Shown one piece after another: positions 16,184-25,004 of a stretch of DNA of 28,443 nt (positions are counted from its first letter, which is position 1; each line of letters starts with the position of its first letter). Position numbers and translations under genes: made by a program. The notes beneath the pieces were generated by a model. That model was given only the letters and a program-made list of their open reading frames with translations. It was not told the origin of the DNA and ran no database searches. Origin of the DNA: a virus; IMG/VR virus record IMGVR_UViG_3300047550_004219, positions 1 through 28,443 of that record. One strand, written 5' to 3'.

Positions 16184-16911
16184 CTAGCTTGATCGACCCC
16201 CGTTTCCGCGTCGAAGTCCTAGCCAGCACGCCTAAGCCTCAGAGTCTAGTGTGGCGAGCTATGCATCAGGACTACAGTGAAAATTTTGTTTATGACGAAA
16301 CGCCTCCCCCCGAGAGCGAGGCCGGCCTGCTTGTAGTAAAGCACCTATTAAATGGGGATCGAGGTCATTATGGCCCCCTCGAGCACCCTCAGATAAGTTT
16401 TAATGTGGGATGGTTTCCTCACGATGTGATGCAGCAAGCACGCACACATCGAGTTGGTGTGAGTTTTGACGTACAATCAGGTCGTTACACAGGTCAACGT
16501 ATATGCGCGGTTGCGACAGGAGTGCTAGACATTGATGAAGTGTTTTATCGTAGACCTGTGGGTGTGTACAGAAATAGACAAGGCAAAGTCTACCAATACA
16601 CAGAAGCTGCGCGCGCAGCGGACCTTGACATCTATTTAACACTAGCAAAACTCTATAAAGCCGATATAGACAGAGGTGTGGCGGAAGAGCACGCCAGGCG
16701 CGTGATACCATACGCGCTCCGTCAGCACTTTGTTGTGAGCTGTAATTTACGCTCGCTGCTCCACCTATTCGATCTGAGAGCTAAGCACGATGCGCAACAC
16801 GAGATAGTCCAAATGTGTGAGCTTATCTGGCCGCATTTAGAAGTCTGGGCCCCCGAGGTCGCCCGCTGGTACTCACGCACCCGTCTGCACAAAGCTCGCC
16901 TTGCTCCGTAA
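16180..16911 (+). CDS. thyX: FAD-dependent thymidylate synthase
   Basis: 243 aa. ThyX makes dTMP from dUMP using methylene-tetrahydrofolate and NAD(P)H through FAD, with no free dihydrofolate step. The signature segment QARTHRVGVSFDVQSGRYTG (about residues 87-106) is the RTHR...S..QS.RY variant of the ThyX motif that I know from cyanobacteria and their phages. Upstream GPLEHPQISFNV supplies the conserved E-H pair, and LRSLLHLFDLRAKHDAQHEI the C-terminal R....R....AQ.EI motif. It is ATGA-coupled upstream and lies with the dNMP kinase in one operon, fitting dTTP supply during replication. Confidence 0.93.
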   Translation: MTSLIDPRFRVEVLASTPKPQSLVWRAMHQDYSENFVYDETPPPESEAGLLVVKHLLNGDRGHYGPLEHPQISFNVGWFPHDVMQQARTHRVGVSFDVQSGRYTGQRICAVATGVLDIDEVFYRRPVGVYRNRQGKVYQYTEAARAADLDIYLTLAKLYKADIDRGVAEEHARRVIPYALRQHFVVSCNLRSLLHLFDLRAKHDAQHEIVQMCELIWPHLEVWAPEVARWYSRTRLHKARLAP

Positions 16912-16960
16912 AGGCACCGCGACCTTCTTCACTTCCCTTGCGCCGGTCCCCTCCGCACTG

Positions 16961-17818
16961 ATGTCCCAATCTGAAATCCACGCCTATCTTGCTGAAGTAG
17001 GCCGCTATCCCGTTCTCTCTAAAGAGGCGCAATTACGTCACTGCCGTCGTATTCATGCCTGGATGCAAGCCGGGCGTGACACCGCTCCTCCTAAACTCAG
17101 CCGAGCCGGGCGGCGTTCGCTCGAAGTCATGACCGCTACGAATCTTCGACTTGTCGTCTCTATAGCTAAGCGCTACCAAGGCAGAGGTATGGATATGGCC
17201 GATCTAATACAAGAAGGTAACTTAGGTCTAATACGCGGGCTAGAGTTGTTCGACCCGACCCGTGGTTATGCTGTCTCCACTTATGTCTACTGGTGGGTTA
17301 GACAAGGCATAACGCGAGCCCTGCATACACATTCTCGCACTATACGTCTGCCAATCAACACGTACGAAGTTCTCACAAAACTACAACGTTTTATAGGTGA
17401 CTACCTCGTGCGTAACGGGCGGCATCCTACGATCTCCGAGATCGCGGAGCACATGCGCATACCCCCCGAGCGTGCCACCGCCATTCTCGAGGCCGACATC
17501 CAAACGGCCTGTGCCAGCCTCGACACCCTCTGCCCTGAAGGCTCTGGCACTCTGCTTGACCTCATCCCCAGCACGTCCCCTGCAGACGATCCCGAGCATC
17601 ATCTCCTCACCGAGTCCGATCATGAAGCTATTCATACCGGGTTGGGTCAGCTACAAGACGTGGAGAGGCACGTCATCACATCGACATACTTTAAAGATCG
17701 TACGTTACGCGAGTTAGGTGAAGAACTCGGTATCAGCCGCGCGCGGGCGGGGCAGATACAACAAGCTGGGATACGTAAACTGAAACAGATGCTAAAAGCA
17801 TCTAACCACACCCCTTGA
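16961..17818 (+). CDS. Sigma-70-family RNA polymerase sigma factor with unusual region 4.2
   Basis: 285 aa from the ATG at 16961, 49 nt after thyX; a TTG at 16901 inside thyX is in frame but less likely. Region 1.2 is visible (IHAYLAEVGRYPVLS), then region 2 (NLRLVVSIAKRYQG.G.D..DLIQEGNLGL, STYVYWWVRQGITRAL), then region 3 (RTIRLPINTYEVLTKLQRF, HPTISEIAEHMRI) and region 4 (TLRELGEELGISRARAGQIQQAGIRKLKQ). It is therefore a complete group 1/2-like factor without the acidic 1.1. In region 4.2 the usual R-E-R-x-R-Q recognition helix reads R-A-R-A-G-Q, which removes two residues that contact the -35 element in E. coli sigma-70. It should guide host RNA polymerase to phage promoters. Confidence 0.92.
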   Translation: MSQSEIHAYLAEVGRYPVLSKEAQLRHCRRIHAWMQAGRDTAPPKLSRAGRRSLEVMTATNLRLVVSIAKRYQGRGMDMADLIQEGNLGLIRGLELFDPTRGYAVSTYVYWWVRQGITRALHTHSRTIRLPINTYEVLTKLQRFIGDYLVRNGRHPTISEIAEHMRIPPERATAILEADIQTACASLDTLCPEGSGTLLDLIPSTSPADDPEHHLLTESDHEAIHTGLGQLQDVERHVITSTYFKDRTLRELGEELGISRARAGQIQQAGIRKLKQMLKASNHTP

Positions 17819-18093: not shown

Positions 18094-18468
18094 ATGCGTT
18101 CTCAAGTACCTCTAGAACGGCTCTTAGCAGTCTGTGACTTGATCTACACTCGCGACGGTTTTGTGACCTGGAGCGAAGTAGGTAAAATCCTTCATATAAG
18201 TCGGCAAGCGGTGCAACTGCGCTTGCGCGCTGCCGTCGACAAAGGCGATGTTCCCCCTGAGCTCGTCACTAAGTATCAAAGTATGGCAGCGCGAGCAGCC
18301 ACAAACCGAGAGCGTAAAGAGCAGCGAGAGTACAGTGACAATAAGCATCGTCGTTACATGCGTTTCACCCCCGAAAATCTAGAGTGGCTACAGCAGCAGG
18401 CTACTCAGCGCAGCGCTACCATCACAGACATTGTAAATGGGCTGGTCGTTAAAGCCAGGAACAACTAA
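18094..18468 (+). CDS. DNA-binding protein with N-terminal HTH and C-terminal RHH-like segment
   Basis: 124 aa. Residues ~5-50 form a helix-turn-helix (LLAVCDLIYTRDGFVTWSEVGKILHISRQAVQLRLRAAV). A basic linker (NRERKEQREYSDNKHRRY) follows, and then YMRFTPENLEWLQQQAT....TITDIVNGLVV, which has the strand-helix-helix order of ribbon-helix-helix proteins. Two different DNA-binding units in such a short protein is unusual. It is the last gene before the structured non-coding region, about 70 nt upstream of it, and could control that region or its own operon. Confidence 0.6.
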   Translation: MRSQVPLERLLAVCDLIYTRDGFVTWSEVGKILHISRQAVQLRLRAAVDKGDVPPELVTKYQSMAARAATNRERKEQREYSDNKHRRYMRFTPENLEWLQQQATQRSATITDIVNGLVVKARNN

Positions 18469-18475
18469 TTACATA

Positions 18476-18506
18476 CATATACATTTTTTTGGGGGCTATG
18501 TATATG
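18476..18506. repeat. AT-rich inverted repeat before the structured RNA
   Basis: CATATACAT (18476-18484) and ATGTATATG (18498-18506) are perfect 9-base inverted arms around a T6-G5 spacer. GGGGG (18491-18495) can also pair with CCCCC (18522-18526), in conflict with the first pairing. It follows the HTH gene by 8 nt. It may act as operator, terminator-like element or promoter region for the RNA downstream. Confidence 0.55.
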
Positions 18507-18538
18507 CTTTATTGCTGTGTACCCCCACCTCAGGTTGC

Positions 18539-19549
18539 GACTCGTGAGTCTAGAAGGGCTCTCTATCTATCTATGCGGTCACCTAGTGTCTCAACGTGAG
18601 ACACGGTTGAGATCACTGAATGTTAAGCTGGCTTGACCAAGGCTGCGATTCCGGTGCTAGGTTGGCAACGACAACCGAGGAGCCCCCGGAGAGCGCTGCT
18701 CTCGCGGACGGCGCCCGGGCTGTCACCATACCGCACCTAGACAACCGAACACCAGGCCCACGGGTCCCGCGGCTTTGCTGCGCCCGTGCGCCGATCACGC
18801 TTCCCGCCTTGTGCGGGTTTCGTGATCCTGTCGCCGGTCCGCTTGACGGATCCCGCGGCGGTGGTGCTAGGTTAGGTGCACCGATCCAAAAGGGTCGGTC
18901 AGCCGCTTCAGCGGCGCGTCCTGTTCACAAACTGCCTATGTAATGACTCGTTGCGGAGCTGTGCTCCGTCCTACTAACAACAACCGTGCCGAGCGCAGTG
19001 TCGAGCCCGTGATCGGGTGAGCCTGCCCAGCTTGGAGGGAAGACGTATCGGACAATGAGCCCGTAAGGGCCGGGGTCTGTACCAGGGGCGGCGATTTGCC
19101 TGCGGTCTGGCCTACGTATCGTCTGAATCCTGGCTTCGCCGGAGGGACAAGCTGACCCGCCTTGTGCGGGCCTCTCAGAGGAGGGCACCTAGGGATAGGT
19201 GTTCAGCCCTAACCGACCCGGATGGTATGGGGGAATAGGTGCAGCGGCATGATGCCGAGCCCACGCCCGAGCCATCGGGCCTAGGTGAGCACTAGCAGGC
19301 GCGGGCTCTGAGCCCTTCGAAGCTAGTAGCTGTCTAGTGGGCAGGCAGTGAAGCTGACAGCGCAACCCCGGCGAACAGGGGCGCGACTGTCTTGCTGTAC
19401 CTATGGGAATACGCAACCCGGCTTACCCCGGCTCTGCACATACGGTCACCGCGTGTTGACCGTGGCAATGGGTATTCGGCTCTGCCTAACACGCACAAAC
19501 CATCTCCCCCAGAAGTCCCCCCTGGCGCACTGCGTCCGGGGGTCTTTTG
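18539..19549 (+). ncRNA. Candidate giant structured non-coding RNA (GOLLD/ROOL-like)
   Basis: About 1 kb without a convincing gene but dense in perfect hairpins. Examples: 18586-18604 (8 bp, loop ACG); 18689-18703 (6 bp); 18793-18827 (7 bp enclosing a 5-bp hairpin); 18881-18898 (7 bp with AAAA loop, one G-T pair); 18902-18915; 18954-18968; 19006-19017; 19059-19070 (GCCC-GTAA-GGGC, a GNRA loop); 19156-19170 directly stacked on 19171-19181; 19245-19257; 19265-19280; 19303-19315; 19442-19463 inside a 19407-19412/19472-19477 stem. A longer-range helix pairs CACCTAGG (19186-19193) with CCTAGGTG (19280-19287). GGTGCTAGGTT occurs twice (18653, 18863), and the hairpin CCCGC-CTTGT-GCGGG twice (18803, 19156). 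It ends in an intrinsic terminator, which sets the strand. Size, phage setting and GNRA loop suggest the GOLLD/ROOL class, but I cannot confirm any Rfam family. Ends are approximate. Confidence 0.65.
19518..19548 (+). terminator. Intrinsic terminator at the end of the structured RNA
   Basis: An 11-bp stem with one mismatch and one G-T pair (19518-19528 with 19532-19542; core CCCCC/GGGGG), loop ACT, followed by TCTTTT. It lies 45 nt before the next gene and gives the structured region a defined 3' end on the plus strand. Confidence 0.7.
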
Positions 19550-19592
19550 GCTGAGGTGCTTTGCACCTTTTCCTCTCGCAGTGAGTCTCTGC

Positions 19593-19841
19593 ATGGATCA
19601 AATGGTTTTTGTCCGCACTCGTGCTATCGCCGCAGGCGGCATAGTCCGCGCCAACCTCGCGAACACAACCCTTAAGCGTGGCAGTTCCGACCACAAGTAC
19701 AAGCACTCACTGTCTGTGTGCGACAACCACCTAGTCGCCGCTCGCGTGTGGATTATAGACCACATGCCGCTGGTTAATAGCCAGCCCGTAGGGCTGCAGT
19801 CGTATGACGATGGCTACGTCTTCGCGTTCTCCGCTGCCTGA
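19593..19841 (+). CDS. Unknown small protein
   Basis: 82 aa from the ATG at 19593; an in-frame GTG at 19581 and an ATG at 19602 are alternatives. The product begins MDQMVFVRTRAIAAGGIVRAN and later reads HKYKHSLSVCDNHLVAARVWIIDHMPL. It has a mixed, protein-like composition. No family recognised. It is the first gene after the structured RNA. Short perfect hairpins continue inside it (19628-19639, 19782-19794), so the RNA-like character of this stretch does not stop at the terminator. Confidence 0.5.
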   Translation: MDQMVFVRTRAIAAGGIVRANLANTTLKRGSSDHKYKHSLSVCDNHLVAARVWIIDHMPLVNSQPVGLQSYDDGYVFAFSAA

Positions 19842-21268: not shown

Positions 21269-21513
21269 AAGTCACCCCCGAGCACTACCGCACCCTCTGC
21301 CACGCGATCTACCGATCCCAGCAGGGTGTAGAAACCCTCGACGAGTACGTCAACCAGCACGGTCTCACGCCCATGCGCTGGCGCTGGGACCTGCTCTGGC
21401 GTGCCAAACGTGTGGGCCACCTACCTGAGCGGTTCATCGAGGACACCCTCTACTCCTACTGCAACGACACCCACATCGACACCGCCCTACGCCGGATCAC
21501 CGGCACCAACTGA
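21265..21513 (+). CDS. Conserved small phage protein with HIDTALRRI motif
   Basis: 82 aa from the ATG overlapping the preceding stop. HYRTLCHAIYRSQQGVETLDEYVNQHGLTPMRWRWDLLWRA and the end LYSYCNDTHIDTALRRITG match a family of small proteins found in many phages (usually ...GLS..R.RWDLL..A......LY.YLNDDHIDTALR.I). The function is not known to me. Good sign that this cassette is phage DNA rather than host DNA. Confidence 0.75.
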   Translation: MKVTPEHYRTLCHAIYRSQQGVETLDEYVNQHGLTPMRWRWDLLWRAKRVGHLPERFIEDTLYSYCNDTHIDTALRRITGTN

Positions 21514-21605
21514 AGCACCCCCGAGCCCGTTCCCTGCCCCGCAGGGTCGGGCCCCTGGGCGCCTCTGCGCCTCATCCCTCTCAAGCTGTGAGTTCAGCGC
21601 ATTTT

Positions 21606-23723: not shown

Positions 23724-23870
23724 CTCAATGCTCTCTGACCTGACACCTCCCCGAGGGCCCCCGCCCTGAATGGGTTGACTTTATCTCGCTCCGTCACTAC
23801 CGTGGTCTCACAAGGGCGAGGTGCTCCAACTCAATCACAGTCACGTCCTCTACCTAGTTCAACTATTGTA
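23724..23870. other. Gap before the DUF932 gene, possible weak promoter
   Basis: About 150 bases. A small GC hairpin (AGGGC/GCCCT) lies near 23754-23767. TTGACT at 23775-23780 is followed after 17 nt by TACCGT, a weak candidate promoter for the gene downstream. No protein-like frame other than the upstream extension of the next gene. Confidence 0.35.
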
Positions 23871-25004
23871 ATGACTTTCTTCATTGAGACTGCCCAGCCT
23901 ACGCACAGTGACACTGACGAAGCTCGTGCCGTTAGTAACATGCGTGCTGGTCTGCACAGACAAGTAACTTCGGGTTACGCCCGCGAACGGCATCTTTTGC
24001 TCACTGCTCCGCCACAGATCGCTATCCAGGCCGGAGGCACCCCGGTCGGTCCCGATGCCTCTCCTCGCCAGGCTTTCTCCGCTGCCGGGGCTAACTTCAC
24101 CGTAATCTCCCGGCCGATCGCCTTCGATTCTTCCCCCGAGGGCGATGCAGACTGGCTCTCTATCGCCTCCCACAAAGCTATCGTTCGCACTGATACATCT
24201 CGCGCCCTGGGGGTTGTAGGCCGCGCGTACGAGCCGGTCCAGAACGAAGCGCTGATCAACCTGTTTGAGTATCTGCGCGAAGACGCTAAGCTTGACAACA
24301 TCGTCGTGCTCGGTGGCGGGCAGCGTGTGTATGCCACAGCCTCGATCGCTCTAGAAGGGGAGGTCATCCCGGGTGATAAGATCCGTCGCTATCTCCATGC
24401 TTTCAATAGTCACGACGGTACCACATCCTTTGGTGTGTTCTTCAGCGACTTGCGCCTAGTGTGCGCCAATCAGCTGGCTTTTATCTCCGGCCGCGGAGCA
24501 CGTAAAGCAAAGGCAGCAGGCCATGGCCTCACGCTGCGCCACAGTCGGAATGTTCGAGCCTTCGCAGAGCGCCTCCCTGAGTTGATCAATCTCCAGACTC
24601 AAACTTTCGCACGCTCGCTAGCGGAGCTGACCCCTCTCACCACCACGCGGCTCACGACCGAGACGGCCCGTCGTGTGCTCGAGCTGACTTATGCCGACAA
24701 GCTGTCCACCCCGGTCAGAGATCGCGCCACCGGGATCCAGCGTGAGCGCACCCTGAGTGACCTGGAGGACAGCCACGTGGCGACCATCCGCAGCCACTGC
24801 TACGGTGAGACTGGGCTGGGCATCGATCCTGCTGACCGTTCGCTCTGGAACCTGTACCAGGCCATTACCCAGTTCGAGACGCACGACACCGGCCGGCTGA
24901 AGGATCCTATCGCCTCGGCCCGCGCCCGCCTCAGTGCTTTGTGGGGAGGAGCCGCCGCGCAGCGCATTGAGCGTGCGCGTGAAGCCTGCCTGGCCCTGGT
25001 CTGA
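23871..25004 (+). CDS. DUF932 family protein
   Basis: 377 aa from the ATG at 23871; a TTG at 23775 would add 32 residues of low-complexity sequence. The core matches DUF932/TIGR03299-type proteins: ADWLSIASHKAIVRTDTSRALGVVGRAYEPVQNEALINLFEYL, GGGQRVYATASI, IRRYLHAFNSHDGTTSFGVFFSDLRLVCANQLAF, then RHSRNVRAFAERLPELI. These proteins are widespread in phages and plasmids, often near replication or accessory genes, with no proven activity that I know. The C-terminal 100 residues are helical. It is the largest accessory gene of this end of the window. Confidence 0.8.
   Translation: MTFFIETAQPTHSDTDEARAVSNMRAGLHRQVTSGYARERHLLLTAPPQIAIQAGGTPVGPDASPRQAFSAAGANFTVISRPIAFDSSPEGDADWLSIASHKAIVRTDTSRALGVVGRAYEPVQNEALINLFEYLREDAKLDNIVVLGGGQRVYATASIALEGEVIPGDKIRRYLHAFNSHDGTTSFGVFFSDLRLVCANQLAFISGRGARKAKAAGHGLTLRHSRNVRAFAERLPELINLQTQTFARSLAELTPLTTTRLTTETARRVLELTYADKLSTPVRDRATGIQRERTLSDLEDSHVATIRSHCYGETGLGIDPADRSLWNLYQAITQFETHDTGRLKDPIASARARLSALWGGAAAQRIERAREACLALV

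Follow-up and report, generated by a model that had tools for sequence, protein, structure and literature searches.

What does a phage keep in about a kilobase of DNA that is rich in hairpins and holds no convincing gene? Such a region lies in the window, by which we mean the whole stretch of DNA that was analyzed, the 28,443-base IMG/VR virus record IMGVR_UViG_3300047550_004219. A preliminary description of this DNA proposed a single RNA of ~1 kb with its own terminator, possibly belonging to GOLLD or ROOL. To our knowledge, large structured phage RNAs such as these have no known function.

Position and conservation of the region

Related contigs were reached through a downstream protein, and the pattern of the 3′ hairpin served as a probe for further IMG/VR loci. 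It matched 52 contigs, which represent 38 distinct loci besides the window, plus one more relative; about 39 related viruses carry the RNA region at the same genome position. Where upstream sequence suffices, they share the same order: sigma factor, an optional small gene, a region of ~0.9 to 1.05 kb, the long hairpin, and then varying genes. The sigma-factor gene lies upstream in every related locus with enough sequence, and in all distinct loci of that kind the region is alike in position and size. It has no conserved ORF in these relatives and is sometimes preceded by orf124 or a minus-strand ORF. A homologue of orf124, a candidate regulator whose protein has no Pfam or PHROG match, is present in about half of the loci. 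Relatives sought through this 124-aa protein were not found, and the sigma factor led only to distant ones, in which the RNA was absent by blastn. The coordinates of all features are collected in Table 1.

Related contigs that look complete are ~70 to 72 kb long. In a relative of 71,967 bases, the sigma factor is followed by a regulator-like gene, the RNA region, ~10 kb of small unknown genes and, beyond these, genes for terminase, portal, head, tape measure, and tail. In the window, the other side carries the genes for PolA, ThyX, primase, and exonuclease. A cyanobacterial host is plausible, since the nearest isolates, although remote, are cyanophages (29% for PolA to Pseudanabaena phages, 36% for the sigma factor to Synechococcus phages). 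Phage and plasmid collections held no similar DNA, and in cellular genomes the 3′ hairpin pattern gave two chance matches, with no similarity in their surroundings and no host or prophage identified. The genes 3′ of the RNA region are mosaic, their content varying between relatives. GC content steps from ~50 to 55% to ~61% exactly at the RNA region (window 18500), and the genes 3′ of that point are small, unknown, and mosaic. A DUF932 protein (PHROG 1221) is encoded at 23775-25004, within the downstream operon.

The RNA region itself changes little. Positions 18654-19590 are 92 to 95% identical over ~940 nt in three relatives, and another, L036, is 97% identical over a 584-nt part. In the same relatives, the orf124 protein is just 68 to 71% identical and the sigma factor 54 to 56%, versus 92 to 97% for the RNA. 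Such extreme conservation amid a fast-changing gene neighborhood points to strong selection. The last 80 to 150 nt of the region are shared far more widely than the remainder.

Table 1. Features of the RNA region and its neighbors (window coordinates)
Feature	Position	Strand	Basis or remark
Phage sigma-70-like factor, context gene	16901-17818	+	PHROG 351; Pfam Sigma70_r2/r3/r4
orf124, 124-aa protein	18094-18468	+	Translation; N terminus HTH-like by eye (VTWSEVGKILHISRQAVQLRLRAAVDKG)
Common 5′ boundary motif TACATAYAYATACATTTTTT	18469-18490	+	Precedes the 3′ hairpin by 0.83-1.2 kb in nearly all loci
GAGAC/GTCTC/GCGAC repeats	18534-18616	+	Visible in the window, richer in relatives
Predicted promoter P1, TTGACC-N19-TAGGTT	18633-18663	+	TGC extended -10; motif count
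First structured segment (module A)	18664-18835	+	Ends in hairpin CCCGCCTTGTGCGGGTTTC (18805-18823); alignment of five close relatives, fold
Predicted promoter P2, TTGACG-N19-TAGGTT	18843-18873	+	TGC extended -10, retained by each of the five close relatives
Predicted main RNA, about 650-700 nt (660-685)	18880-19563	+	P2 to 3′ hairpin; ends inferred, structure supported
3′ domain, type B	18977-19408	+	Many helices with compensatory changes; nine-sequence pair count
Type B core	19234-19408	+	Closed by helix UAGGUGCAGC/GCUGUACCUA; used to build covariance model R1
Pseudoknotted element	19443-19494	+	Hairpin 19443-19462, loop GCGUGUU (19451-19457) with AACACGC (19488-19494); hairpin 19470-19487
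Long conserved 3′ hairpin	19496-19563	+	27 pairs; the "terminator" of the preliminary description; pattern in 52 contigs
Alternative hairpin GAGGTGC-TTT-GCACCTT	19553-19569	+	Excludes the base of the long hairpin
Small hairpin GCAG..CTGC directly before start codon	19578-19592	+	GCTG..CAGC in relatives
First downstream gene, 82 aa, unknown	19593-19841	+	Differs between relatives; no Pfam match

Coding potential, covariation, and domain types

We looked for a reading frame in the region. Among nine type B sequences, the maximum open stretch over all six frames is ~75 to 127 codons, and no frame is common to all relatives; the frames differ and are broken by indels. This bears out the earlier impression that there is no convincing gene, and a conserved protein frame, named in advance as one refuting observation, was sought in the relatives and not found.

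Scans against Rfam were empty as well: the 4227 families at curated (gathering) thresholds gave no match in the window or in 15 related loci, and two relatives scanned at an E value of ≤1 gave none. As a fold, 961 nt reached a minimum free energy of -451.6, versus -417.6 ± 8.3 for 20 shuffles (z, -4.1). Single 150-nt windows were less exceptional, and several coding windows of the same phage score equally low, so that thermodynamics alone would not settle the structure. With local windows unexceptional and Rfam empty, the decisive evidence had to be comparative.

We therefore predicted a structure from the window sequence alone (18977-19573), completed it with the pseudoknot and the long hairpin, and tallied its pairs across nine sequences. 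The structure derived from the window was paired in 95.2% of cells, versus 38 to 43% in slid controls. Eighteen pairs had changed on both sides, compared to 6.1 ± 1.7 in shuffles (0 of 500) and 2 to 6 in slid controls, and double-change cells numbered 30, compared to 7.5 in shuffles. Compensatory examples include GCUGA/UUCAGC to GCCAC/GUGGC around variable arms, GGGCU/AGCCC to GGACU/AGUCC, and the helix that closes the type B core. The same holds for type E, a domain unrelated to type B: 97% of its cells are paired, with 9 double-change pairs versus 0 to 3 when slid. A simplified R-scape-style tree test, whose null is underpowered, gave weaker results: a best pair at an E value of 0.01 and the pseudoknot pair at 0.27 in the 3′ element, two marginal pairs and none clear in module C, no pair at an E value of ≤1 in the 3′ hairpin region, and no pair listed for the first all-loci alignment of the 3′ element. 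Of the homologue collection and covariation analysis suggested beforehand, the pair count over nine sequences was thus positive and the tree test weak.

Because covariation exceeds the controls and synteny is retained, comparison indicates that the region encodes a real structured RNA. Compensatory changes beyond controls and the lack of a conserved frame place it among structured noncoding RNAs, and the ornate, hairpin-rich region seen at the outset is backed as a large structured phage RNA. That the region hides a protein-coding gene, or that its GC-rich DNA folds by chance, is largely refuted and has a negligible probability: several coding windows of the phage do fold as well, but the indel-broken frames and covariation far above controls both speak against it.

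Some elements of the first description fared less well in the comparison. The GTAA hairpin at ~19058-19070, read as a GNRA tetraloop, is present in the window but not conserved in relatives: the loop is TTAA in L139, and L122, L148, and L159 have a longer, different arm. Two stacked hairpins at 19156-19181 are present, but the second is absent in L148, L159, and L127. No support was found for a long-range helix between 19186-19193 and 19280-19287, whose 5′ arm is a local hairpin that is deleted in L159 while the 3′ arm stays.

Alignment of 35 loci showed that the ~450 nt preceding the 3′ element fall into types. Type B comprises the window, L107, L122, L131, L138, L139, and L148, with L127 and L159 more distant; type D comprises L121, L132, L142, L143, and L152; and type E comprises L108, L110, L119, L123, L128, L135, and L146, with L115, L144, and L151 more distant. 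Core members within each type are ~88 to 100% identical although their 5′ modules differ, and in L122 and L148 the 3′ domain of the window is joined to a different 5′ module. Covariance model R1, built on the type B core (175 positions), recovers every type B member (L127 scores 118 bits) and has no match in types D or E; on this model, D and E are not detectably homologous to type B.

Predicted promoters and ends of the RNA

Where does the RNA begin? Alignment of the alternative 5′ module exposed a repeated TTGAC...TGC-NANNNT motif. By sigma70-like criteria (-35 TTGAC, a spacing of 17 to 19, a -10 with A2 and T6, strand specificity), 35 loci contain 77 copies on the RNA strand, versus 0.35 expected, and 0 antisense, with regular spacing between copies. 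The plus strand of the window has exactly two, at 18633 and 18843, and both fit the sigma70-like definition by sequence. Their -10 boxes are nonconsensus, and a strict sigma70 scan calls neither; we regard P1 and P2 as predicted sigma70-like promoters. In four related phage records, the same motif is also found ~0.7 to 0.8 kb more upstream, at a place from which it would drive orf124. The promoter spacers show only mild enrichment of a dyad (mean of 3.1 pairs versus 2.3 in shuffles). The GAGAC/GTCTC/GCGAC repeats may be operator-like or form small hairpins. The alternative 5′ module (e.g., in L119 and L142) has three evenly spaced predicted promoters, each followed by conserved hairpins that are possibly separate small RNAs; one such hairpin, CACGCGCGCACATCATGCGCGTTT, is identical in 30 contigs.

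Given two internal promoter motifs, with P2 conserved, we treat the first part of the region as a putative promoter stretch and let the RNA begin at ~18880. The region is probably not one transcript from 18539, and the main RNA probably spans ~18880 to ~19563. The alternative in line with the first description, a single giant GOLLD-like RNA of ~1 kb that would start with the 5′ motif at 18469 and finish in an intrinsic terminator, draws on the shared 5′ motif, on a total size that is constant across all loci, on the strong overall fold, and on GOLLD, which likewise has a conserved 3′ part and a more variable 5′ part (PMC12286853). Against it stand the strand-specific array of predicted promoters inside the region, 5′ and 3′ modules that swap independently, a U-run that L140 and L159 lack and that elsewhere belongs to a covarying stem, and the absence of GOLLD or ROOL similarity in the model searches. 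We consider it improbable. Predicted promoters within the region, its mosaic modules, and covariation that carries on from the 3′ hairpin into the leader of the next gene point instead to a promoter region followed by an RNA of about 650 to 700 nt.

Could the conserved feature be the DNA itself, with iterons and an AT-rich stretch that mark an origin of replication, a site for packaging, or a hotspot of recombination? An AT-rich motif is indeed followed by GAGAC repeats, and mosaic gene content starts right after the region. However, the compensatory changes follow RNA pairing, with frequent G-U pairs, the promoter motif is strictly one-stranded, and there is no skew switch at the region, which leaves this reading very unlikely.

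At the 3′ end, compensatory variants of the pseudoknot (GCGUGC/GCACGC and GUGUGU/ACACAC) are followed by the long hairpin. The hairpin taken for an intrinsic terminator is real, extremely conserved, and spans 19496-19563, but it is at most a putative terminator. It carries TCTTTT, yet the lower stem pairs this U-run with compensatory changes (CCAGAAG/CTTTTGG, CCAGGCA/TGCTTGG, and CCAAACA/TGTTTGG), and pairing extends outwards, CAAACCATCTC with GAGGTGCTTTG. Judging from these variants, the conserved feature is the pairing and not a free U-run. A plain terminator was dropped as a candidate once the U-run was seen to be paired; the hairpin may be cleaved by a double-strand RNase, terminate transcription, or act as a switch. 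L036 and L116 have an internal deletion of ~80 nt (equivalent to window 19397-19475) at 97 to 100% identity, in which the pseudoknot hairpin is lost and the final hairpin is kept.

The covarying hairpins end no more than one base short of the start codon that follows, and the alternative hairpin, which shares GAGGTGC with the long one, has variants GAGGGGC/GCCTCTC and GAGATGC/GCATCTC (read from the alignment). The main rival explanation builds on this: the RNA would be a long cis-acting leader of the downstream operon, which either makes polymerase ignore terminators, in the way of HK022 put RNA, or controls the genes that follow by switching between the long and the alternative hairpin. That the 3′ hairpins covary up to the start codon, and that the two sharing GAGGTGC are mutually exclusive, favors it, as does the CTCTCAAGCTGTGAGTTCAGC leader, which recurs before another gene (21580-21600) and suggests a cis role for the 3′ part. 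There is precedent in HK022 put RNA, a structured RNA of early phage transcripts that acts on polymerase (PMC9378689). Yet mutually unrelated 3′ domain types share the same leader end, and different genes follow it. Known put elements are also far smaller than the ~650 nt found here, and put was set beside the lake-phage RNA by description, as a candidate for working alike. We hold a cis leader to be possible but the less likely explanation. A second short conserved intergenic element at 21511-21600 is 97.7% identical over 88 nt to L034 and has hairpins and the CTCTCAAGCTGTGAGTTCAGC leader motif before a different gene.

Possible function and related RNAs

Comparison has established compensatory folding, a fixed position after the sigma factor, the lack of a coding frame, a strand-specific motif array, the 3′ hairpin, and exchangeable 3′ domains. 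In the reading that we prefer, and to which we give an even chance, a new family of large structured phage RNA, ~650 to 700 nt long, is transcribed from this region as its own unit, split off at the long hairpin, and active in trans. Host sigma70 RNA polymerase would transcribe from tandem P1 and P2 early in infection, and the P2 transcript, about 650 to 700 nt, would fold on its own. Transcription may partly stop at the long 3′ hairpin, and/or an RNase III type double-strand RNase may cut there, freeing a stable RNA. Read-through past the hairpin would serve as mRNA for the small downstream genes, as in the T7 early region. The freed RNA would most likely act in trans as a structural or binding RNA, as proposed for GOLLD and ROOL.

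The T7 early region has tandem host promoters and then RNase III hairpins. Similarly, the lake phages have two to four predicted tandem host-type promoters ~90 to 210 bp apart, followed by a long hairpin just before the first gene; unlike in T7, these are TTGAC promoters with a TGC-extended -10 and spacers of 17 to 19. We know of no large conserved structured RNA of this kind in T7.

GOLLD forms a 14-mer RNA cage and is often found near tRNA genes. The lake-phage RNA resembles GOLLD (RF02032) in being large, ornate, phage encoded, and without known function, and ROOL (RF03087) in being a large phage-associated structured RNA, but it belongs to neither by the searches made. GOLLD, ROOL, and OLE models had no match in the window even at an E value of ≤10. 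The GOLLD model matched 0 of 6 phage records, with no match in five related records; the ROOL model had no match in five related records, in a search whose control genomes were also silent, so that it had no positive control. ARAGORN found no tRNA genes in the window or in 33 loci. Apart from lacking a model match and nearby tRNAs, the lake-phage RNA differs from GOLLD in following a sigma-factor gene and in having a 3′ domain that is itself exchangeable. A search of the open-licence literature found no description of it, and it is apparently an undescribed family that matches no known RNA family. It could possibly still work like GOLLD or ROOL. The family has ~39 relatives, occupies a defined place beside a phage sigma factor, and swaps domains in nature while staying almost completely conserved. 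Its predicted promoters would imply that host polymerase expresses it, which would make function directly testable.

More speculatively, and with perhaps a minor chance of being correct, this may be a new RNA class made of exchangeable parts, in which a fixed promoter and 3′ end form a socket and at least three unrelated 450-nt domains are swapped, each nearly unchanged. If true, such a modular RNA would be the counterpart of modular immunity or counter-defense loci, its domains having different targets. In L127 and L108, the 3′ element has an insertion of ~60 nt with the hairpin TAGTGCT-YCGA-AGCACTA beside a repeat of the GCACAAACC junction, which looks like a small mobile or duplicated hairpin.
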